Shown here: positions 2,555 to 25,001 of the stretch, piece by piece
Layout of the letters: each line of letters begins with the position of its first letter
Position numbering within the stretch: position 1 is the stretch's first letter
IMG/VR virus record: IMGVR_UViG_3300025101_000167
Span: 1-25,231 of that record
DNA from: a virus
Direction: 5' to 3' (one strand)
Length of the DNA stretch: 25,231 nucleotides
Position numbers and translations under genes: made by a program
The notes under the pieces: generated by a model
What the model was told of the DNA's origin: nothing
The model's database searches: none
Seen by the model: the letters and a program-made list of their open reading frames with translations, nothing else

Positions 2555-3139
2555 GTGCCTATTCCTTCTAAATTTAGACAAGGAGATTACGTTCAATGGA
2601 GGATTCCTTCAACAACGGATGTCTTTGGAAATAGTATTTCAAGTCCAGATTGGTCTGTTAAATATTATTTAAGAACAAACTCAGGGCCTATTGGTGCAAC
2701 TATCAATAGTTCTGTTCATAGTGATGGTTTTGAATTTACTATTGCAAGTAATGTTACACAAACTTTTCCGCCAGGAGATTGGTATTATCAAGCGGTTGCT
2801 GAAAAATCAGGAGCAGAAAAACAAACTATATTATCAGGAACTTTTGAAGTTATTGCTTCTTTAGTTTATTCTGGAACTCCTTTAAATTTTGATGGCAGAT
2901 TACAAATAGAAAAAGACTTAGAAACTATTGAAACAGCTATAAGAAATATTATTAGTGGTGGTGCGATACAAGAATATAAGATAGGAACTAGAACAGCAAA
3001 AAAATATGAATTAACAGAATTAAGATTACTTAAAGGTGAATTAAAAGCTGAGTTAATTAGAGCAAAACAAGCTGAAATAATTGATAATGGTCTTGGAAAT
3101 CCAAGAACAACTTTTGTACGTTTCGATAGGTCATTCTAA
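2555..3139 (+). CDS. gpW-like head-completion protein fused to an N-terminal beta domain
   Basis: The 194-residue product sits where lambda encodes the 68-residue gpW, between terminase and portal. Its C-terminal part, about 115-194, follows the gpW pattern: a helix (LETIETAIRNIISGG), a short beta element with basic residues (YKIGTRTAKKYE), a second helix (LTELRLLKGELKAELIRAK) and a Gly/Arg/Phe tail. gpW plugs the portal after DNA packaging. Residues 1-105 are beta-rich with an Ig-like or fibre-like look (DWSVKYYLRTNSG, FPPGDWYYQAVAEKSG) and are absent from gpW. The start is GTG with no clear Shine-Dalgarno, 6 bases after the terL stop. The stop overlaps the portal start by one base. The gpW call is moderate and the N-terminal role unknown. 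Confidence 0.7.
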   Translation: MPIPSKFRQGDYVQWRIPSTTDVFGNSISSPDWSVKYYLRTNSGPIGATINSSVHSDGFEFTIASNVTQTFPPGDWYYQAVAEKSGAEKQTILSGTFEVIASLVYSGTPLNFDGRLQIEKDLETIETAIRNIISGGAIQEYKIGTRTAKKYELTELRLLKGELKAELIRAKQAEIIDNGLGNPRTTFVRFDRSF

Positions 3140-4692
3140 TGGGTATTAGATCAAACATTGCTAGTGCAGTAAAACGAGTTTTAGGTTTTGGTGAAAAAGC
3201 TAATCCACTAAAAAACATAAGAGCTTATCAAGGAGCATTAGTTTCTAGGCTTACATCTGATTGGATGGCAAGTCAGCTTAGTGCTGATGCAGAGATTAGA
3301 AACAGTCTTAGGAAACTAAGAGATAGATCAAGGGAACTTGTAAGAAATAATCCTTACGCAAGACAAGCCAAGAGAACTACTCAAATAAATATTGTTGGAA
3401 CTGGTATGAAGTTTCAATCAAGGGTGTTACAGATTAGAGGTAATAGAAGAGATCAAAGAATAAATAATCTTATAGAGCAAAAATGGGCTGAATGGTCTGG
3501 TGCTAATAGTTGTGATTGTGCGGGAAGATATGGATTTCATGAGTTTGAGTGGTTAGCAGCGGGTGCTTTATGCGAGTCAGGTGAGGCAATATTTAGGATA
3601 GTTAGGCAACAGTTTGGAAACTCAAAAGTACCTCTTGCTTTACAGTTAATAGAGTCAGATTTATTAGATGAAGAATATACAGGTAAAACTTTAAAAATTA
3701 AGAATGAATGGCGAAACGGAGTGGAAATTGATGAGTGGGGAAGGCCAGTACGTTATGCCATTCTTACTAAACATCCAGGAGATGCTTATTACTTAGATTA
3801 TTCAAATAATCAAAAGTTGCATATTTTTATAAATGCAGATGACATCATCCACCTATACCTTCCAGAAAGGCCAGGCCAGAATCGTGGTGTGCCTTGGTTT
3901 CATAGTGTAATGGCTGATATGCATCAATTAGAAGGTTATGAAGAAGCAGCTGTCATTAGAGCTAGGGCGGGTGCAAGTATTATGGGATTTATACAAAACG
4001 ATCAAGGTGAGTTAATAGGCGATGAAGTACAAAATAATCAAAGGATACAATCTTTCTCGCCTGGTGAGTTTCGTTATCTAGCACCAAATGAAAGTATTAA
4101 CATTCCAGATATAGACTATCCATCTCAGCAGTATGAGATGTTTGTAAAAAATAAGATAAGACGTTTTGCAACAGGAATAGGTTGTAGTTTTGAAACTATA
4201 AGTAAAGATTTTAGTGAGACTAATTATTCAAGTTCAAGATTAAGTCTTTTAGAAGACAGAGAACATTGGAAGTTTTGTCAAAAATATTTGATAAATAATT
4301 TACATCTAAGAGTATTTAAAGAATGGATAAAATTAGCTGTTCTTGTAGGGGAATTAGATTTTGATGATTTTGCATTAAGACCAGAAAGATATGTAAAACC
4401 AAGATGGACTCCTCCCGCACAACACTACGTTGATCCTTTAAAGGAAGTAAAAGCTTTTAGAGAAGCAGAACAAGCGGGTTACATGAGTAAGGCACAAGTT
4501 ATAGCTGCTACAAATGGTGGCGATTATGACGATATTATTTCAGAAATATCAAGAGAACAGGAAGTTGCTAAAGAGTTAGGGGTTACATTAGATAAAGATC
4601 TTGATCTTGAGGTAGAGGTAGGTCAATTAGAACTTGATTTACCTACAGTACAACCAACAAGAGCTAAGAAAACACGCAAAAAAACTAAGTAA
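3139..4692 (+). CDS. Portal protein, lambda gpB family
   Basis: This 517-residue protein matches the lambda-type portal family in length and motifs. It has an N-terminal helical stretch ending RNNPYARQAKRTTQINIVGTG, which is the family hallmark at about 75-95. The central wing contains LIESDLLDEEY and DDIIHLYLPERPGQNRGVPWF (a conserved loop at about 235-255). The stem region has FETISKDFSETNYSSSRLS at about 350-368. Portals form the dodecameric ring through which DNA enters and to which the neck attaches. The C-terminus is acidic and then lysine/threonine-rich. The gene follows the gpW-like gene with a one-base overlap and precedes the capsid polyprotein by two bases. Confidence 0.93.
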   Translation: MGIRSNIASAVKRVLGFGEKANPLKNIRAYQGALVSRLTSDWMASQLSADAEIRNSLRKLRDRSRELVRNNPYARQAKRTTQINIVGTGMKFQSRVLQIRGNRRDQRINNLIEQKWAEWSGANSCDCAGRYGFHEFEWLAAGALCESGEAIFRIVRQQFGNSKVPLALQLIESDLLDEEYTGKTLKIKNEWRNGVEIDEWGRPVRYAILTKHPGDAYYLDYSNNQKLHIFINADDIIHLYLPERPGQNRGVPWFHSVMADMHQLEGYEEAAVIRARAGASIMGFIQNDQGELIGDEVQNNQRIQSFSPGEFRYLAPNESINIPDIDYPSQQYEMFVKNKIRRFATGIGCSFETISKDFSETNYSSSRLSLLEDREHWKFCQKYLINNLHLRVFKEWIKLAVLVGELDFDDFALRPERYVKPRWTPPAQHYVDPLKEVKAFREAEQAGYMSKAQVIAATNGGDYDDIISEISREQEVAKELGVTLDKDLDLEVEVGQLELDLPTVQPTRAKKTRKKTK

Positions 4693-4694
4693 TC

Positions 4695-7445
4695 ATGGCA
4701 AATGTAAGCGGAACTGAGATTAATCTCAAACCTACAGATGGGATGAAAACGGAAGCACAAAGATATAAAGATTGGAAAAAAGAAGGTAGAGCAGGTGGCA
4801 CACAAGTTGCAGCAGTTAGAGCGACTCAAATATTAAGTGGTTCAGAGCTTTCACCAGATGTTGTAGTAAGGATGTTTAGTTTCTTTAGTAGGCATGAGGT
4901 TGACAAAAAAGCAGAAGGTTTTAGTCCTGGTGAAAAGGGATATCCATCAAAAGGCAGGGTCGCATGGGCAGCCTGGGGAGGTGATGCGGGCTTTAGTTGG
5001 AGTAGAGGTAAAGCTTCTGCTATTAAGAAAGCTAGAGAAAGGGCAGAACCAATAGAACTTGCAAGACCATATCCAAACGAACACGCAGCTACTATTACAA
5101 ATCCAGAACAATATGATACATTTAGGCGGTCAAACAATGAAGGTTCACAAGGGGTAGACTTTATTTTTGGTATAAAGAATAATGAAGAGGGTGCTGAACT
5201 TCAATCAATAAGATTCAGACTGTCTGAATATTCTGTCTCCCAAGCTAAATCTTGGCTTGATAGAAACGAATTTGATCCCATCAAGTTTGAACCCGCTACT
5301 AACGAAAAATCTATGACTGAATCTAAAACAGTTGAGAAAAGAGCCGAACCTGATGGTTTGAAGGTCGGTGATTTTGTCAGGTGGAACTCTAGTGGTGGTA
5401 CAGCTAGAGGTAAAATTGATCGCATTGTAAGAGATGGATCAATAGATGTACCAGATAGTTCCTTTACTATTACAGGAACAGCAGAAGATCCCGCTGCACT
5501 CATTACTTTATATAGGAATGGTGAGGCTACAGATCGTAAGGTTGGTCATAAGTTTTCTACTTTGACTAAGATCGCAGCTATCAGAACAATAGAGTCTGAT
5601 GACAAATTGGAAAGAAAAGAAGTTACTGATTTTAAAAATGTAAAATCAAGAACATTTGAATTTCCTTTCAGTTCTGAGTACCCAGTAACTCGTTATTTCG
5701 GGAAAGAAATACTCTCACATGAACGTGGTGCTGCTGATCTTTCAAGACTGAATGATGGCGGTGCAGTTTTGTTTAATCACAATATGGACAAACCAATAGG
5801 TGTAGTTGAGTCTGCATATATTGGAGAAGACAAACGTGGTTATGCAAAGATTCGTTTCTCAAGGAGCAAGTTTGCATCCGAAATCTTAGAAGATGTTAAA
5901 GATGGAATTATCCGAGGCATTAGTTTTGGATATTCTATAAATGATATTGATGAGACTGAAGAAGGTATGCTCGCAAGGTCATGGTCTGTACACGAATTGT
6001 CAGTTGTAACTGTGCCAGCAGATCCAACAATAGGCTTTGGTAGAAGCTTGATTACACCCTCACAAGGTAATAGTATTACTATGGAAGATAAGTCACCTAT
6101 TAAGGAGATTAATTCTGCGGATGATTCCGCATCACCCTCTGTTCGTATTATGGAAGAACCAATCAAAGAAACTCAGGTTGAAGCGGAGAAATCCGTTGAA
6201 ATCGACATCAAAGCCGAAGTTCAACGTGCTATTGATGAAAACAACGCTCGTACAGCATCTATCACTTCTTTATGTCGTGAATTTGGAGAGTATGGAGCAG
6301 AAGACATAGCTGAAACTCTAATTAAAGGCAACAAATCTGTTGTTGAAGCAAGAGCAGCTATCCTCGATCTTGTTAAAAACAAGGCAGAGGTCAATAATAC
6401 CCCTATTCGTTCAACAGACATGACAACTAATGAAGTTGGTTTAGAACCAAAAGAAGTTAAAAAGTTTTCTTTCTTAAGAGCTTTAAATGCACTAGCAAAT
6501 CCAAATGACAGATCAGCACAAGAAGCTGCTGCATTTGAAAGAGAAGTTTCAGACGAAGCATCTAAGCGTTATGACAAGCCAGCAAATGGTATTTTAGTTC
6601 CTAACGAAGTTTTACAAAGAGATTTGAATGTTGGTAGTGCAACTGCGGGTGGTAACTTAGTTCCAACTGATTTATTGTCTGGTTCTTTTATCGATATTCT
6701 TCGTAAGAGAATGGCTGTTATGGCTGCGAATCCTACTATGTTGACTGGATTATCAGGAAATATTGCAATTCCTAGAATGACTCAAAGTGCCTCTGGATTC
6801 TTTGTTGGAGAAGGTGCAGAACCAACAGAATCACAGCAAGCTTTTGATCAAGTCAACATGACACCTAAGACAGTTGGTGGTGTTGTTGAGTTCACAAGAC
6901 GCTTGTTATTGCAGTCATCTATAGATGTTGAATCTATGATTAGAGACGATATAGCTCGCGTAATTGCTACTAAATTAGATAACGCAGCTATCTATGGTAC
7001 AGGTTCTTCAAACCAACCTTTAGGCATTAAAGATACAACAGGTGTTGGTACACAATCTTTAACTAGTTTTGGTACTTTTGCTGAGTATATCGGTATGGAA
7101 ACAGATGTTGCCGCAGCAAATGCTGATGTAGCAAATATGTTCTATATCATTAACTCATCTGCTAGAGGTGCTTTAAAGTCAACAGAAAAGACAAGCACAT
7201 CAACTGCTAATTTCGTTTTTGAAAACAATGAAATTAATGGCTATCCAGTTATTGTTTCTAACCAACTTGCTAACAACGATGCGTTATTCGGTGACTTCAG
7301 CCAGTTCTGTATTGGAATGTGGAGTGGTTTAGATTTAACAGTAGACACAATCACAAAGGCGGGTAGTGGCACAGTTAAGATTGTGGCTTTACAAGATGTA
7401 GATTTTGCTATTAAGCAACCAACTGCTTTCTGTTTCGCAACATAA
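4695..7445 (+). CDS. Multi-domain prohead protease and major capsid protein fusion
   Basis: A single uninterrupted 916-residue frame combines several modules. About 10-105 is a small domain with the motif KAEGFSPGEKGYPSKGRVAW then WGGDAG, seen in various phage proteins. About 125-205 is a second accessory domain resembling parts of XkdF-like head proteins. About 220-295 resembles the small HVA1/Tudor-like fold (VGDFVRWNSSGGTARGKI). About 315-455 is an HK97-type prohead protease with likely catalytic His362 (LFNHN) and Ser410 (RGISFGYS). About 490-570 is a helical delta/scaffold segment. About 590-916 is an HK97-fold major capsid protein (SATAGGNLVP, FFVGEGAE, LDNAAIYGTGSSNQPLGI). HK97-like phages usually encode protease and capsid separately or as a two-part fusion. 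Maturation probably cuts near 575-640. No Shine-Dalgarno is obvious before the ATG. Confidence 0.93.
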   Translation: MANVSGTEINLKPTDGMKTEAQRYKDWKKEGRAGGTQVAAVRATQILSGSELSPDVVVRMFSFFSRHEVDKKAEGFSPGEKGYPSKGRVAWAAWGGDAGFSWSRGKASAIKKARERAEPIELARPYPNEHAATITNPEQYDTFRRSNNEGSQGVDFIFGIKNNEEGAELQSIRFRLSEYSVSQAKSWLDRNEFDPIKFEPATNEKSMTESKTVEKRAEPDGLKVGDFVRWNSSGGTARGKIDRIVRDGSIDVPDSSFTITGTAEDPAALITLYRNGEATDRKVGHKFSTLTKIAAIRTIESDDKLERKEVTDFKNVKSRTFEFPFSSEYPVTRYFGKEILSHERGAADLSRLNDGGAVLFNHNMDKPIGVVESAYIGEDKRGYAKIRFSRSKFASEILEDVKDGIIRGISFGYSINDIDETEEGMLARSWSVHELSVVTVPADPTIGFGRSLITPSQGNSITMEDKSPIKEINSADDSASPSVRIMEEPIKETQVEAEKSVEIDIKAEVQRAIDENNARTASITSLCREFGEYGAEDIAETLIKGNKSVVEARAAILDLVKNKAEVNNTPIRSTDMTTNEVGLEPKEVKKFSFLRALNALANPNDRSAQEAAAFEREVSDEASKRYDKPANGILVPNEVLQRDLNVGSATAGGNLVPTDLLSGSFIDILRKRMAVMAANPTMLTGLSGNIAIPRMTQSASGFFVGEGAEPTESQQAFDQVNMTPKTVGGVVEFTRRLLLQSSIDVESMIRDDIARVIATKLDNAAIYGTGSSNQPLGIKDTTGVGTQSLTSFGTFAEYIGMETDVAAANADVANMFYIINSSARGALKSTEKTSTSTANFVFENNEINGYPVIVSNQLANNDALFGDFSQFCIGMWSGLDLTVDTITKAGSGTVKIVALQDVDFAIKQPTAFCFAT

Positions 7446-18687: not shown

Positions 18688-19860
18688 ATGGCACAGGTCG
18701 GCAATAAAAATATAGATAATGCTTCTGGTCAAGTTGTAAGACTAGATATTCAAAATACTATTGGAGCAGTTGCATCAAATAATTTTGGAGCGAAATCTTC
18801 TGCGGGTGAAATACAGCCTGCAGAATTTGTAGCAGATAGTTCAACTACACCTAAAAAATTACTCATAAGATCAACAAGTGGTGCTTCTGCAGCCACTAGT
18901 GCAACTTTTTTTGAAGTTGGTAATTTAGATGAAGCAAACTTAGGATTACTTCCTAAAAGTGGTGGCACAATGACAGGTGCAATCTTAGGTGATGATGCTT
19001 CTGGAGCAGCTAGCCCCGCATATAGTTTTGATCAAGACTCTGACACAGGAATGTTTAGATCAGGTGCAAACTCACTTGGTTTTGCAACTGCTGGCACACA
19101 AAGATTTTCAGTTAGTGATTCTGGATTAGATATAACTGATGGACTGCCTTTAAGATTTCAAGATTCAAGTGGTGCTCCTTTTGTTGCATTAAAATCCCCA
19201 AGTTCTTTAGGAGGTAATGTAACGCTTACTTTACCTGCCACCGATGGGAATGCAGGGGAAGTTTTATCTACAGATGGAAGCGGTGTCCTCTCATTTTCTG
19301 TAATACAAGGTGTACCAACTGGTGCTGTTTTTTGTATGGCTATATCAACAGTTCCTAGCGGTTATCTTGAATGTAATGGTCAAATAGTAAATAGAACTAC
19401 TTATGCAGCTCTATTTACAGCTATTGGAGTTCAATATGGTGCGGGTAATGGATCAACAACATTTCAATTACCTGATTTAAGAGGAGAGTTTATAAGAGGT
19501 TTTGATAATGGAAAAGGAACTGATAGCGGTAGGCAAATTGGTACTTCACAAACAGGTAGCTTTGGACAACACTTACACGCAGTTGATTTGACAACTAGCA
19601 ATAAAACACTTACTGGTGCATTAAGAATGATTTCTAAAGGTTTTCAATCAAATGGTCAAGCAAGTGGTGTATTTACAAAAATAGGAGGTCAATCTTCTGT
19701 TGATGCACAAGCAAGTGGTTCTGCAACTTCTGGTTCTGTAAGTTTTGATGCCTCACATGATCATACAGTTGTTGGTAATACTGATAATACAGGATCTACA
19801 AGCAACAGTAATGAGACTCGACCTCGTAATATAGCAATGATGTACATAATAAAAACTTAG
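18688..19860 (+). CDS. Tail fibre with phage tail collar domain
   Basis: This 390-residue fibre begins with a beta-rich attachment region. A repeat-like module at about 105-150 includes YSFDQDSDTGMFRSGANSLG and RFSVSDSGLDI. A tail collar domain runs from about 211 to 275 (GAVFCMAISTVPSGYLECNG, TFQLPDLRGEFIRGFD). The C-terminal part has two HxH motifs, HLH at 295-297 and HDH at 357-359, which in T4-type fibres bind metal ions in a trimeric needle, and ends NETRPRNIAMMYIIK. It most likely recognises the host surface. The strong ribosome binding site upstream serves a six-codon leader rather than this start directly. Confidence 0.88.
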   Translation: MAQVGNKNIDNASGQVVRLDIQNTIGAVASNNFGAKSSAGEIQPAEFVADSSTTPKKLLIRSTSGASAATSATFFEVGNLDEANLGLLPKSGGTMTGAILGDDASGAASPAYSFDQDSDTGMFRSGANSLGFATAGTQRFSVSDSGLDITDGLPLRFQDSSGAPFVALKSPSSLGGNVTLTLPATDGNAGEVLSTDGSGVLSFSVIQGVPTGAVFCMAISTVPSGYLECNGQIVNRTTYAALFTAIGVQYGAGNGSTTFQLPDLRGEFIRGFDNGKGTDSGRQIGTSQTGSFGQHLHAVDLTTSNKTLTGALRMISKGFQSNGQASGVFTKIGGQSSVDAQASGSATSGSVSFDASHDHTVVGNTDNTGSTSNSNETRPRNIAMMYIIKT

Positions 19861-19862
19861 CT

Positions 19863-20207
19863 ATGTCTATTCAGCCTGGTACTTACAATTTTATAATGCA
19901 AAGAAGAGCAGATTTTTCTTTGCGTCTTCAATTTAAAGATTCAACTGGAACTGCTATAAATTTAGGAGGTTTTACTGTATATTCTCAATGTTGGGATTTA
20001 AATAGAAAAATAAAATTTGCAGATTTTTCTGTTGCATATACAAATAGAACAACTGGAACTGTTGATATTTCTTTAACAGATACACAGACAGAAACTTTTC
20101 AAACAGAAAAACTTGCGTATGATGTTTTACTTGAAGATAGTAATAACAAAAGAGAATACTACCTTGAAGGTGTTATAACTATGTCAGAGGGTTATACAAA
20201 ACCATGA
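19863..20207 (+). CDS. Small fibre-locus protein, possibly BppU-like N-terminal domain
   Basis: This 114-residue protein has the pattern of a beta-sandwich that anchors fibres: YNFIMQRRADFSLRLQFKDSTG, a strand with FTVYSQCWDL, TGTVDISLTDTQTETF and DVLLEDSNNKREYYLEGVITM. It recalls the N-terminal domain of upper baseplate or receptor-binding proteins in other siphophages, but only loosely. It begins 2 bases after the collar fibre gene and overlaps the next gene by four bases, so the two may form one assembly unit. Function is inferred from the locus. Confidence 0.6.
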   Translation: MSIQPGTYNFIMQRRADFSLRLQFKDSTGTAINLGGFTVYSQCWDLNRKIKFADFSVAYTNRTTGTVDISLTDTQTETFQTEKLAYDVLLEDSNNKREYYLEGVITMSEGYTKP

Positions 20208-20443
20208 CATCTGTAAACATTACAACAACTAAAAATACAGTAAATGTTACTGAAGGTGATCCAACTGTAGTCACGATTGCAACTCAAGGGCCACAAGGCC
20301 CAAGTGGTTCAATTAGTGGCCTTAACTTTGACACTTCTGGCAAAGTAAATGATGCCTTGCTGTACTACCACGCTGCATCTGATACATTTAAAGCAGATAG
20401 CTCAACAACCAAACTAACCCTTGTCGATGGAGGTAATTTTTAG
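20204..20443 (+). CDS. Small collagen-like fibre linker protein
   Basis: This 79-residue protein starts with a Thr/Val-rich strand region (VNITTTKNTVNVTEG), followed by a short collagen-type GPQGPSG segment and a C-terminal part (DALLYYHAASDTFKADSSTT). Short GPQGP linkers that trimerise and space domains are common in phage fibres. It overlaps the previous stop by four bases. A role as adaptor or linker between tail tip and fibre is inferred. Confidence 0.6.
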   Translation: MTSVNITTTKNTVNVTEGDPTVVTIATQGPQGPSGSISGLNFDTSGKVNDALLYYHAASDTFKADSSTTKLTLVDGGNF

Positions 20444-20446
20444 AAC

Positions 20447-21754
20447 ATGGCTAACACAGTACGCATAAAAAGATCTACAGGATCTTCAGCACCAACAAGC
20501 CTTGCAAATGCTGAGTTAGCTTTTGCTGAAGGCAGTAAAAAACTATTCATTGGAGTAGGAACTGGAGGAGCAGGGGGTTCTGCTACGACAATCGAAGCTA
20601 TTGGTGGGACAGGAAGCTTTTTTGATAAATCAACAGTACAAAATGCTAATAAATTTATTGGTGGGCCTACATCTGGAAGTGACGCAGCTCCTACATTTAG
20701 AGCCTTAGTAGAAGCGGATATTCCTTCTCTAGCTCATACAAAAATATCTGACTTTGATACAGGTGTAAGAGTTAACAAATTAAATGAAATGGCTGCTCCA
20801 ACAGCTAGTGTTAGTCTTAATTCACAAACAATCACTAATTTAGCTGATCCTGTAAATACACAAGATGCAGCAACTCGTGGTTTTGTTGAAGCTACAGCAC
20901 AAGGACTTGATGTGAAAGATTCTGTTGTTGCTTCTACGACTGCAAATATAACAATCTCTACAGCACTTAATAATGGTGATACTTTAGATGGTGTTACTTT
21001 ATCAAATAATGATCGAGTCTTAGTAAAAAATCAAAGTACAGCGTCAGAGAATGGAATATACATAGTTGGATCTTCTCCATCCAGAGCAAGTGACCTTGCT
21101 ACTGGTGCTGACGCAGCGGGAATGTTTACATTTGTAGAACAAGGGACTGTTAATGGTGATAATGGGTTCGTTTGCACCAGTAATAAAGGATCTGCTGTTG
21201 TAGGTACTAATAATTTAACTTTTGCTCAATTTAGTGGTGCGGGAAATATTACGGCAGGAGATGGATTAGATAAATCTGGAAATGAATTAAGTGTTGATAT
21301 TAAAGCAAATGGAGGACTTGTTATTGAGTCAACAGAACTTGCTATAGATCTAGCTGCAAGTTCTATTACAGGAACTCTTGCTTTAGGTGATGGAGGTACA
21401 GGTGCAACTTCAGCGTCAGGAGCAAGAACAGCTTTAGGGTTGGTCATAGGAACTAATGTACAGGCTTATGACGCAGATTTAGATGCTTTATCTAGTTGTC
21501 AATCTGGAGCTGCCTCTGCTTTAGCATTGTTAACTGCAACTGAGGTAGCAATTTTAGACGGTGCAACTCTTACAACTGCTGAGTTAAATATTATTGATGG
21601 AGATACATCTGCTACTTCAACAACACTTGCTTCGGCTGATCGTATTGTTGTTAATGATAATGGCACTATGAAACAAGTTGCTTTATCTGATTTAGTTACA
21701 TATTTTGAAAATGGATCTGTTTCTGGTTTTGATATAGACGGAGGAACATACTAA
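20447..21754 (+). CDS. Tail fibre protein with Mtd-like N-terminal module
   Basis: This 435-residue fibre begins VRIKRSTGSSAPTSLANAELAF with KKLFIG at about 31-36, resembling the N-terminal module of Mtd and other phage fibres. The middle has IPSLAHTKISDFDTGVR, then NLADPVNTQDAATRGFVE at about 131-148, typical of modular marine phage fibres, and DTLDGVTLSNNDRVLVKNQS, ENGIYIVG. The C-terminal part is Ala/Thr-rich with TATEVAILDGATLTTAELNIIDG. It is probably a trimeric fibre shaft. No diversity-generating retroelement signals are seen around it. GGAGG at about 20430 may assist initiation. Confidence 0.78.
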   Translation: MANTVRIKRSTGSSAPTSLANAELAFAEGSKKLFIGVGTGGAGGSATTIEAIGGTGSFFDKSTVQNANKFIGGPTSGSDAAPTFRALVEADIPSLAHTKISDFDTGVRVNKLNEMAAPTASVSLNSQTITNLADPVNTQDAATRGFVEATAQGLDVKDSVVASTTANITISTALNNGDTLDGVTLSNNDRVLVKNQSTASENGIYIVGSSPSRASDLATGADAAGMFTFVEQGTVNGDNGFVCTSNKGSAVVGTNNLTFAQFSGAGNITAGDGLDKSGNELSVDIKANGGLVIESTELAIDLAASSITGTLALGDGGTGATSASGARTALGLVIGTNVQAYDADLDALSSCQSGAASALALLTATEVAILDGATLTTAELNIIDGDTSATSTTLASADRIVVNDNGTMKQVALSDLVTYFENGSVSGFDIDGGTY

Positions 21755-21779
21755 AATTAACCATTAGGAGGGTCGGTCA

Positions 21780-23195
21780 ATGGCTAACACAATTAAACTT
21801 AAACGAGGCACTAGCACACCAACCACAAGTGATTTATCTAATGGTGAAGTTGGGATAGATACTTCTGCAAAAAAATTATTTGTAAATGATAGTGGAACAG
21901 TAAAAGAAATTGGAGGTACAACCGCACCAAACTTTAAATATCTTGAATTAAGAAATTCCTCAAATAATGGATCGGCAAGTTATCCAGGTAATGATTTTAC
22001 TCTTGTTTTAGCGGGAACTACAACAGCACAAACCGTAGGTGCTGCAAATCAGTTATTAGTAAGTGTATCAGGAGTTATTCAACAACCAAACTCAGGAACA
22101 TCTACAAGCGGTATTACAGGTTTTATTGTTGATGGTAATAGATTAAAAACAGCAACTAATTTACCTGCTGCTCCTGATTTTATTATTTTTCAAGAAGCAG
22201 GTGGGATTGGAGCACCTAGTGATGGAACAGTTTCTACAGATAAAATCATTGATGATGCTGTAACGGCTGCGAAATTAGCAAACTCAATAAATGCTGAGAT
22301 AGCTGCAAATACGGCAAAGGTTACCAATGCAACACATACAGGTGAAGTGACAGGAGCAACTGCACTCACGATTGCTGACAATGTTGTGGATGAAGCAAAT
22401 TTAAAAGTTTCAAATTCTCCTACTAATGGATATTTTTTATCTGCTCAAAGTGGTAATGCAGGTGGTTTAACATGGGCTGAAGTTACTACAGACTTAGTTG
22501 GTGACACATCACCTCAGCTAGGAGGTGATTTGCAAAGTAACGGTAATGATATTAATTTTGCTGATAATGATAAGGCTGTCTTTGGATCGGGTTCGGATTT
22601 GCAAATTTCACATGATTCAAATAATAGTTTAATTGCAGATGTAGGTACAGGAGCTTTAGTTCTTAAAAGCAATCAAATTGATTTTATAGATTCTACATCA
22701 ACTGAATTTTTAGCAAGATTTTTTGAAAATTCTAGTGTAGAACTATATTTTGATAGCACAAGGCGTTTCCAGACTACAAGCATAGGTGTGACGGTGACTG
22801 GAGCAATTACCGCAACAGATAATATTTATCTTGGAGACAACAAATCACTTAGAATTGGAGCTGGGCATGATTTTATACTCACTCATGATGGTACAAACAA
22901 CATCATAAATAGTGGTAATGGTGACTTAGTTTTACAAACAGCTAATAATTCAAGGGCTTTCCTTACAAGTACAAGTTTTAACCCAGCAGCTAATAACACT
23001 TATGACTTGGGTACAACAAGTCTTAGATGGAGAAACATTTACACGAATGACCTTAACTTATCTAACGAGGGTGGTGCTAATGACATTGACGGTACATGGG
23101 GAAGTTATACTATACAGGAAGGTTTGGATTCGCTATTCTTGATTAATAAACGCAATGGTAAGAAGTATAAATTTAATTTAACGGAGGTATCATAA
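21780..23195 (+). CDS. Tail fibre protein, paralogous N-terminus to the previous gene
   Basis: This 471-residue fibre opens MANTIKLKRGTSTPTTSDLS with KKLFVND, matching the first residues of the upstream fibre (MANTVRIKRSTGSSAPTS), so the two share an attachment module. A shaft region has SPQLGGDLQSNGND at about 244-257 and beta-helix-like repeats (LQISHDSNNSLIAD, DFILTHDGTNNIINSGNGDLVL). The end has NTYDLGTTSLRWRNIYTNDL and finishes KRNGKKYKFNLTEVS. A strong Shine-Dalgarno AGGAGGG at 21765-21771 precedes the ATG. It is likely a receptor-binding or shaft component. Confidence 0.8.
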   Translation: MANTIKLKRGTSTPTTSDLSNGEVGIDTSAKKLFVNDSGTVKEIGGTTAPNFKYLELRNSSNNGSASYPGNDFTLVLAGTTTAQTVGAANQLLVSVSGVIQQPNSGTSTSGITGFIVDGNRLKTATNLPAAPDFIIFQEAGGIGAPSDGTVSTDKIIDDAVTAAKLANSINAEIAANTAKVTNATHTGEVTGATALTIADNVVDEANLKVSNSPTNGYFLSAQSGNAGGLTWAEVTTDLVGDTSPQLGGDLQSNGNDINFADNDKAVFGSGSDLQISHDSNNSLIADVGTGALVLKSNQIDFIDSTSTEFLARFFENSSVELYFDSTRRFQTTSIGVTVTGAITATDNIYLGDNKSLRIGAGHDFILTHDGTNNIINSGNGDLVLQTANNSRAFLTSTSFNPAANNTYDLGTTSLRWRNIYTNDLNLSNEGGANDIDGTWGSYTIQEGLDSLFLINKRNGKKYKFNLTEVS

Positions 23196-23722
23196 TGACT
23201 ATATTTTTTGGTGATAGTACAAGTATTGCTAGTGGAGGTTCTTTAGGGAAACTTTTAGATTTTCAACAATATCAAACCACAGGAACTCTTTCTACAACAG
23301 CAAGAGATTTTGCAGATACAACTAACTTTACTGTTACTCTTACTCCTCAAACAAATAGCAAAGTATTTATATCTTTCTTTGCTCAAATGGGTAAGGATGA
23401 TACATCAGGTTTAAAATTTAGAATTGCAAGAGTAAAAAGCGGAACAACAACTTACCTTGGAATTTCAGATTCAACAGATTGGAGAGGTAAGCGACCAACT
23501 ATGGTTAGTTATATAGGTGCTTCTGATACAACTAATCAGGTTTATAACATGGGTTTTCAATTTGTAGACACATCACCTGGAGGTAACGGAAGTACAAGTA
23601 TTGTTTATAAATTACAATGGATGATTAACGGAGGAACTGGTTACATAGGAAGAGATAGTACAGGGTCAGTTAGTGCTTATGGTGGTGCTAACCAATTCAC
23701 AGTTATGGAGATAGGAGCATAA
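23195..23722 (+). CDS. Fibre tip protein, C-terminal beta-sandwich paralogue 1
   Basis: This 175-residue protein is mainly one beta-sandwich: TARDFADTTNFTVTLTPQTNSKVFISFFAQ, FRIARVKSGTTTYLGISDS, FQFVDTSPGGNGSTSIVYKLQW and a final FTVMEIGA. The same order of motifs occurs in the genes at 24459 and 24998, marking a repeated receptor-binding-like domain. The stop of the upstream fibre overlaps its ATG by one base and GGAGG sits about 8 bases before the start. A fibre-tip role is inferred. Confidence 0.68.
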   Translation: MTIFFGDSTSIASGGSLGKLLDFQQYQTTGTLSTTARDFADTTNFTVTLTPQTNSKVFISFFAQMGKDDTSGLKFRIARVKSGTTTYLGISDSTDWRGKRPTMVSYIGASDTTNQVYNMGFQFVDTSPGGNGSTSIVYKLQWMINGGTGYIGRDSTGSVSAYGGANQFTVMEIGA

Positions 23723-24447
23723 TGAGTTTAACAAAAGTCACTTCAAACGGTATAACAGATGGTACTATTCTCAATGCTGATATTAATTCTAGTGCAGCAA
23801 TATCAGCAACTAAAATATCAGGACTAGCTTCTTCAGCAACGACTGATACAACTAATGCTTCAAACTTATCTTCTGGTACTATTCCTGATGCAAGATTTCC
23901 ATCGACTCTCCCTGCTGTAAATGGAGCAAACTTAACAGGAATAAATACAGATTTAGTTGATGACAGTTCTCCTCAACTTGGAGGAGACTTGGATTGTCAA
24001 TCAAGCAAAATAACTACATCAACAAGTAATGGAAATTTAAAAGTTGAGCCAAATGGAACAGGGGTTTTTGAAATAAGAGGTGCAGGTGGTAATGATGGCA
24101 CACTTCAATTAAATTGTTCGGCACAGAGTCATGGAGTAAAACTTAAATCCCCTGCTCATAGTGCGGGTCAATCATATACAGTAATTCTTCCTGACAATCA
24201 AATAGCTGTAGATAAAGCATTAGTTGTTAAAAGTATTTCTGGTTCTGGTTCTACAGCAATAGGTCAACTTGAATTTGGAGATGTTAGCTCTCAAGTGGCT
24301 GATGGTTGTATAACAGAAAATTCGCAAACTATTTCTAATAATTACACTATGTCAACTAATAAATCAGGTATTTCGGCAGGGCCAGTTACAGTAGCAAGTG
24401 GAGCAACAGTTACCATTCCATCAGGTTCACGCTATGTTATTGTTTAG
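23722..24447 (+). CDS. Tail fibre shaft protein
   Basis: This 241-residue protein begins SLTKVTSNGITDGTILNADI and has SSAAISATKISGLASSA and ASNLSSGTIPDARFPSTLPA, all characteristic of modular marine phage fibres. SPQLGGDLD at about 83-91 repeats the module in the fibre at 21780. The C-terminal part has a predicted strand-rich repeat ending NNYTMSTNKSGISAGPVTVA and SGATVTIPSGSRYVIV, a recurring fibre end. It lies between two paralogous tip genes and overlaps the upstream stop by one base. AGGAG precedes the ATG. Confidence 0.75.
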   Translation: MSLTKVTSNGITDGTILNADINSSAAISATKISGLASSATTDTTNASNLSSGTIPDARFPSTLPAVNGANLTGINTDLVDDSSPQLGGDLDCQSSKITTSTSNGNLKVEPNGTGVFEIRGAGGNDGTLQLNCSAQSHGVKLKSPAHSAGQSYTVILPDNQIAVDKALVVKSISGSGSTAIGQLEFGDVSSQVADGCITENSQTISNNYTMSTNKSGISAGPVTVASGATVTIPSGSRYVIV

Positions 24448-24458
24448 GAGGTAAAATT

Positions 24459-25001
24459 ATGCCAATAGTATTAAACGGATCAACTGGAAATATATCAGCT
24501 TCAAGCTTGACAGGTGTAACTACAGGAAAAGTGCTTCAAGTTGTGCAAAAATTAAAAACTGATACGGCTTCTTTAATAAATACTACAACTTTTACAGATA
24601 TTTCTGGATTATCACAAGCAATTACTATATCTGCTAGTAGTAAAGTTAGAATTGGTTTTGATTGTACTTGGAGTACAGATGGTGGCTATAGTGCCATGTT
24701 TAGATTAGTAAGAATTGATGCTGATGGTTCTACTGTTTATCCTTATTTAGGAGATACTAATGGCAGTAGAACTAGGTCTAGTTTTGGTGGATTTGGATCT
24801 GCCTCATCTTATAATATGGAGCACAGTCAACTCGAATTTTTAGATACACCTAGCGGGGCAGGAACACATACATATAAGATTCAATGGCAAACAGGATATA
24901 CAAGTAATCATGTTTGGCTAAATAGAGATAAACAAGGAACTAATGGTGCTACTAGGGCTTCTACTCCTTCCTCACTTATACTTACGGAGGTAGCAGCATG
25001 A
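24459..25001 (+). CDS. Fibre tip protein, C-terminal beta-sandwich paralogue 2
   Basis: This 180-residue protein starts with a short attachment segment (VLNGSTGNISASSLTG) and then carries the same beta-sandwich type as the gene at 23195: GKVLQVVQKLKTD, TFTDISGLSQAITISASSKVRIGF, MFRLVRIDADGSTVYPYLGD, LEFLDTPSGAGTHTYKIQWQ and SLILTEVA. A strong Shine-Dalgarno GGAGG lies at 24448-24452. Its stop overlaps the next ATG by three bases. It is probably a host-range determinant. Confidence 0.72.
   Translation: MPIVLNGSTGNISASSLTGVTTGKVLQVVQKLKTDTASLINTTTFTDISGLSQAITISASSKVRIGFDCTWSTDGGYSAMFRLVRIDADGSTVYPYLGDTNGSRTRSSFGGFGSASSYNMEHSQLEFLDTPSGAGTHTYKIQWQTGYTSNHVWLNRDKQGTNGATRASTPSSLILTEVAA

Follow-up and report, generated by a model that had tools for sequence, protein, structure and literature searches.

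Several described systems resemble the locus studied here. In HK97, two genes (gp4 and gp5) supply separate amounts of the protease and of the delta-bearing capsid precursor. In lambda, the scaffold Nu3 arises from an internal start within the protease gene C, the capsid protein E is encoded separately, and the C protease belongs to a family other than S78. Two-part fusions of protease and capsid are also known, as the earlier note on this DNA had stated: those of the phrog_617 type (VP882, Jilinvirus and S-LBS1, and also the head gene of R4C) carry an S78 protease, delta-like helices and an HK97-fold capsid in one frame, and in the records read they directly follow the portal gene. We analysed a gene of this kind from a marine tailed phage, in a 25-kb virus record of 25,231 nucleotides (IMGVR_UViG_3300025101_000167; hereafter the window), which shares all of these features but, unlike many phrog_617-type fusions, carries an N-terminal cassette of small domains (D1, D2 and an Hva1/Tudor-like domain, HVA). 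The NCBIfam model that names such fusions (NF045541, prohead protease/MCP fusion) matched only residues 315-580 of the window protein, with 149.5 bits, far under its cut-off of 525.

Synechococcus phages S-CBS1 and S-CBS3 have the same gene order, and in their 836-aa protein D1 and D2 stand in front of the protease and capsid, though unlike the window they lack the HVA domain. Fusion genes with D1 also occur in Roseobacter phages CRP-811, CRP-821 and CRP-406, where the internal Shine-Dalgarno sites are strong, but the cassettes of these phages differ from that of the window (D1-HVA, D1-other-D2 and D1 only, respectively); the word 'protease' does not occur in the text of the paper describing them (PMC12629253). 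A limited search of titles and abstracts, which is no proof of absence, found no published internal start in fusions of this kind.

Domain architecture of the fusion gene

The fusion frame is intact over 916 codons, with its stop at 7443-7445, and both frame reading and Pfam and PHROGs profiles bore out the domain order proposed in the earlier note (Table 1). The whole frame stays open in close relatives, and protease and capsid share one frame in 200 relatives. Synonymous and nonsynonymous rates indicated that the accessory domains, protease, delta segment and capsid are all selected as protein, and the dN/dS of medians in the accessory domains (about 0.08-0.13) was similar to that of the protease. 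The openness of the frame in close relatives and the purifying selection on the accessory domains show that the arrangement is not due to chance.

Table 1. Positions in the window of the fusion gene, its parts and the portal gene.
Feature	Residues	Position	Strand	Evidence
Portal protein		3139..4692	+	PF05136
Fusion gene, D1 - D2 - Hva1/Tudor - S78 protease - linker - delta/scaffold - HK97-fold capsid		4695..7445	+	Single open frame, profile matches
D1, GYPSxGxxAW/WGGDxG helical domain	10-117	4722..5045	+	phrog_2859, AlphaFold2 helices
D2, PYPNEHAA...FEPA domain	119-205	5049..5309	+	Alpha/beta in model; present or absent across relatives
Hva1/Tudor-like beta-barrel	217-298	5343..5588	+	Pfam PF11160, fold match
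S78 prohead protease domain	315-450	5637..6044	+	Pfam PF04586; H362 at 5778-5780, S410 at 5922-5924
Variable linker	451-485	6045..6149	+	Alignment; model pLDDT <50 over 440-505
Synonymously constrained tract	codons 470-515	6102..6239	+	O/E and dS minima
Candidate internal start codon M486	486	6150..6152	+	Conserved Met, synonymous minimum
Delta/scaffold-like helical segment (approximate end)	486 to about 630	6150..6584	+	Helices 505-626 in model
HK97-fold major capsid core	652-916	6648..7442	+	Pfam, R4C capsid matches

We searched the front part of the protein (residues 1-310) against Pfam, PHROGs and NCBIfam. D1 matched phrog_2859, annotated 'unknown', over residues 13-115 (E 4e-30), and Hva1_TUDOR was recovered at 225-273 (2.4e-6) with 28.0 bits against a gathering threshold of 24.1. 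In the predicted model the Hva1 barrel resembles Tudor/SH3-like folds, including 4p5n (Z 6.6, rmsd 2.5, 61 residues, 28% identity). D2 matched no curated profile in the three databases, and a Foldseek search of residues 1-310 against PDB gave nothing at E <= 0.001, which we do not take as a sign of a new fold. The full-length AlphaFold2 model is poor across long stretches (mean pLDDT 63). The earlier note had held that a lack of similarity in residues 1-310 would count against it; similarity was thus found for D1 and HVA, while D2 stayed without a match. No profile in Pfam, PHROGs or NCBIfam supported its label 'XkdF-like' for the second domain. The XkdF-type protease (PF14550) gave no Pfam row up to E 1 for the 916-aa protein, residues 1-310 included, and it is D1, not D2, that elsewhere forms a fusion with an XkdF-type protease. 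The idea that the front part consists of genuine accessory domains was supported. No catalytic domain was recognised in residues 1-310 with the three profile sets. D1 is basic (pI 10.1) and D2 acidic; the basic D1 and the Tudor-like HVA suggest that these two domains act in binding, with no particular partner indicated.

Peptidase_S78 was detected at 356-444 (Pfam, 4e-11), and the predicted fold matched the T4 gp21 protease (5jbl; Z 10.0, 125 residues, 3.1 A). The catalytic pair proposed earlier, His362 and Ser410, 48 residues apart, was found at those positions and was invariant in 200/200 aligned relatives. The phrog_617 'major head protein' profile spanned 315-915 (1.9e-155), which covers protease, delta and capsid, and together with the catalytic His and Ser of S78 this places the protein in the phrog_617 type. 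The window protease matches S78 and so is not of the lambda type. The helical delta segment that had been proposed was present in the AlphaFold2 model, and the capsid in the same frame was recovered both by Pfam (Phage_capsid at 652-915, 7e-41) and by its matches to the R4C capsid 8gta, in sequence (E 3.6e-52) and in fold (Z 10.7, rmsd 3.7, 144 residues).

The portal stop ends 2 nt ahead of the fusion ATG, and translation of the full-length form may for this reason be coupled to that of the portal gene. The earlier note had seen a mosaic in a lambda-type portal and terminase beside an HK97-type head; we see no special mosaic, since a lambda-type portal and a GpA terminase are the usual neighbours in the phrog_617-type family. 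Between terminase and portal, a 194-aa gene (2555-3139) occupies the place of the R4C adaptor gene (vBDshSR4C_004), a match in position alone. Further downstream (18688-24459), a series of ORFs resembles tail-fibre or collar proteins, as read from the sequence.

Variation of the N-terminal cassette among relatives

Scans of viral contigs (two) and of genomes (one), together with cultured phages, gave us 200 loci with protease and capsid in one frame. The exact order D1-D2-HVA, for which the earlier note had asked other phages to be searched, was present in at least 73 fetched loci. Among readable N-termini there were 73 D1-D2-HVA, 40 D1-HVA and 7 D1-HVA-D2 cassettes, with rarer types in 5 (D2-HVA), 4 (D1-D2) and 3 loci (D1 alone). 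Another 61 loci had no D1, D2 or HVA match, and the remainder were other types or cut at the 5' end; these counts are of loci, many of them closely related. The cassette was missing in 42/58 representatives. As read from these N-termini, the cassette is combinatorial and stands ahead of otherwise homologous proteins. This is one of two less expected features, the other being the in-frame ATG of the linker described below.

In the searched phage records, D2 matched only in S-CBS1/3 and CRP-821/822/823/831 and HVA only in CRP-811 and DC31, and none of these records combined all three modules. In phiPsal1 D1 stands before S78, and in DC31 before an XkdF-type protease; this ties the cassette to the protease. 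Vibrio phage 1.214 carries D1 in the second gene ahead of the capsid, and D1 is also fused to portals and to a ParB-annotated protein. A stand-alone D1 of 110 aa in PaBG (L231, 2441-2773), annotated as putative DNA-binding, adjoins DNA topoisomerase genes. Some N-termini held further modules: a Cys-rich domain (CANCAFYAG...CEIVSGDI...CKFWIIPE) between D1 and D2 or D1 and HVA (L089, L164, L173, L207), and, as another apparent cassette module, a domain after D1 ending in KSGKHDTDLLPE(A/G)HP (L005, L116). One prophage head gene (L138) had protease and capsid pieces in several frames and was apparently broken.

A candidate internal start between protease and scaffold

Although the linker that joins protease and scaffold is highly variable, an in-frame ATG was found in it in 57/58 representatives below 75% identity. 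In the wider clade of the window, a Met aligned with M486 in 90/90 distinct linkers and was the sole invariant column of the linker alignment. For the representatives that came from cellular genomes or cultured phages, we then compared the linker ATGs with the remaining in-frame ATGs of each frame: a Shine-Dalgarno core lay 4-11 nt upstream of 40/60 linker ATGs and of 43/638 others (odds ratio 28, Fisher p 4e-27, computed without correction for relatedness). The core was present ahead of the linker ATG in 37/48 divergent representatives, in all three reading phases. Synonymous resampling with fixed amino acids gave an expectation of 23.2 +/- 2.7 sites (maximum 34 in 1000) against the 40 observed, so that part of the excess is due to the encoded amino acids. 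No Shine-Dalgarno core was found upstream of M486 in the window, and most IMG/VR representatives likewise had none before their linker ATGs; by the same criterion only 9/23 window genes have one, and its absence at M486 is therefore weak counter-evidence. Two other Met codons were rejected as starts: M463, which is missing in locus L017 whereas the M486 Met is kept in 90/90 linkers, and M207, which is unconserved in aligned N-termini and has a synonymous O/E of 0.95 for 206-224.

A pair-normalised synonymous scan of 75 close relatives gave O/E values of 0.46 (codons 472-486), 0.12 (487-497) and 0.33 (498-512), and about 1 elsewhere. Among 904 sliding windows, O/E was lowest at codons 485-500 (0.10-0.13), where amino-acid identity was only about 0.66-0.81, and dS was 0.15 for 487-512 versus 0.41 in the linker (451-485) and 0.6-1.5 in six domain regions. 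The best reading of this tract is that of a translation initiation region, although the constraint could reflect another nucleotide-level signal or a recombination joint. An overlapping gene was weakly excluded as its cause: in 13 sampled loci, three of which (L053, L040, L044) were anchored on the wrong Met, the +3, -1 and -3 frames always contained stops, and the +2 and -2 frames were stop-free over the tract in some loci. RNA folding around M486 (mean MFE -8.4 in 25 sequences, versus -9.7 at other in-frame ATGs and -10.1, SD 3.6, for random codons) suffered from the same partial mis-anchoring, and we did not use it as evidence. A lambda C/Nu3-like internal in-frame start ahead of the scaffold would fit these strong sequence signals. 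The earlier note had named an internal start separating protease and capsid as evidence against its own reading; M486 is a conserved candidate for such a start, while the frame itself is still continuous.

Comparison with the R4C head

The cultured relative R4C has a 629-aa fusion gene with an internal ATG189 behind GGAGG, and the report on its shell gives T=7 and 415 capsid copies (PMC10276861). The solved R4C chain (8gta) has 268 residues, the first being R4C residue 362, which aligned with G652 of the window; the virion chain is thus without the N-terminal part of the fusion. These are the modelled residues, and the depositors' numbering suggests roughly 23-27 more upstream, from which we infer a mature N-terminus at about 625-652 in the window protein.

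Two probable nested products and alternative explanations

The conserved internal start between protease and scaffold suggests that most capsid subunits are probably made without cassette or protease. We consider it rather probable that the gene yields two nested products, a protease-bearing full-length minority and a scaffold-capsid form that builds the shell. Translation from 4695, beside the portal stop, would give a 100-kDa chain with cassette, S78 protease, scaffold and capsid, and initiation at M486 a 431-residue scaffold-capsid chain of 46 kDa, about as large as a usual HK97-type capsid precursor. This shorter product would build most of a presumed T=7 prohead, and full-length chains, in a minor proportion, would co-assemble via the same capsid domain and bring the protease and the attached cassette inside, where the protease would remove the scaffold, itself and the cassette. 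Dosage would be separate as in HK97 gp4/gp5, with two genes there and nested products of one frame here. The earlier note had instead expected hundreds of cassette copies to enter the prohead unless cut off, an expectation undercut by M486. A single polyprotein, with every subunit full length and hundreds of cassettes and proteases cut away inside, agrees with the uninterrupted frame in 200 relatives and with the truncated R4C virion chain; we nevertheless regard it as quite unlikely, given the conserved start signals and the volume required, as 415 copies of residues 1-651 would occupy 0.55-0.93 of a T=7 prohead interior, and the scaffold part alone 0.14-0.23 (assumed inner radii 250-210 A). 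Even less likely is that the linker ATG and Shine-Dalgarno sites are disused relics of an ancestral separate capsid gene. Capsid frames separate from the protease do occur, as in L133, where the last part of the preceding ORF overlaps with the capsid frame, but the signals are kept in different hosts at <75% protein identity and are more frequent than synonymous resampling predicts, and an unused relic should decay.

Under the two-product reading, the cassette would most likely, if tentatively, act as a protease extension in the prohead core or in portal-vertex assembly. The chance that it helps to nucleate the core, or anchors subunits that carry the protease at the portal vertex, seems to us a little short of even: D1 stands N-terminal to different protease classes near portal and capsid genes and is fused to portals, and in DC31_128, whose gene is the second before that of the capsid, a long C-terminal region follows HVA; against this, the evidence is of position and fusion partners, and related heads such as that of S-LBS1 assemble without a cassette. 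Much like polyvalent or internal head proteins, the cassette might instead be cargo that the protease frees inside the head and that leaves with the DNA to act on the host or its defences; such a role would also fit two products and is possible, though we hold it doubtful. The mobile, combinatorial small domains, the fusions of D1 to portals, proteases and a ParB-annotated protein, the Tudor-like barrel and the basic D1 are consistent with cargo, and virion-packaged multidomain proteins are known (PMC5512222), but no catalytic domain was recognised in 1-310, 61 loci have no D1, D2 or HVA match, and 'Tudor' and 'S78' are absent from the main text of that Polyvalent Proteins paper (PMC5512222). 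Broader still, and in our view unlikely, the full-length minority chain would be a delivery vehicle whose interchangeable front domains enter the head together with the protease, are released and then have their effect either in the new host or on the packaged DNA.

Implications

Should the internal start be in use, head genes of this widespread kind would solve in one frame the problem of protease dosage that HK97 solves with two genes. Annotated 'major capsid proteins' of 600-1000 aa would then be misdescribed, the abundant precursor being about 430 aa, and the cassette would travel only with the protease-bearing minority, which would make the question of its role testable.
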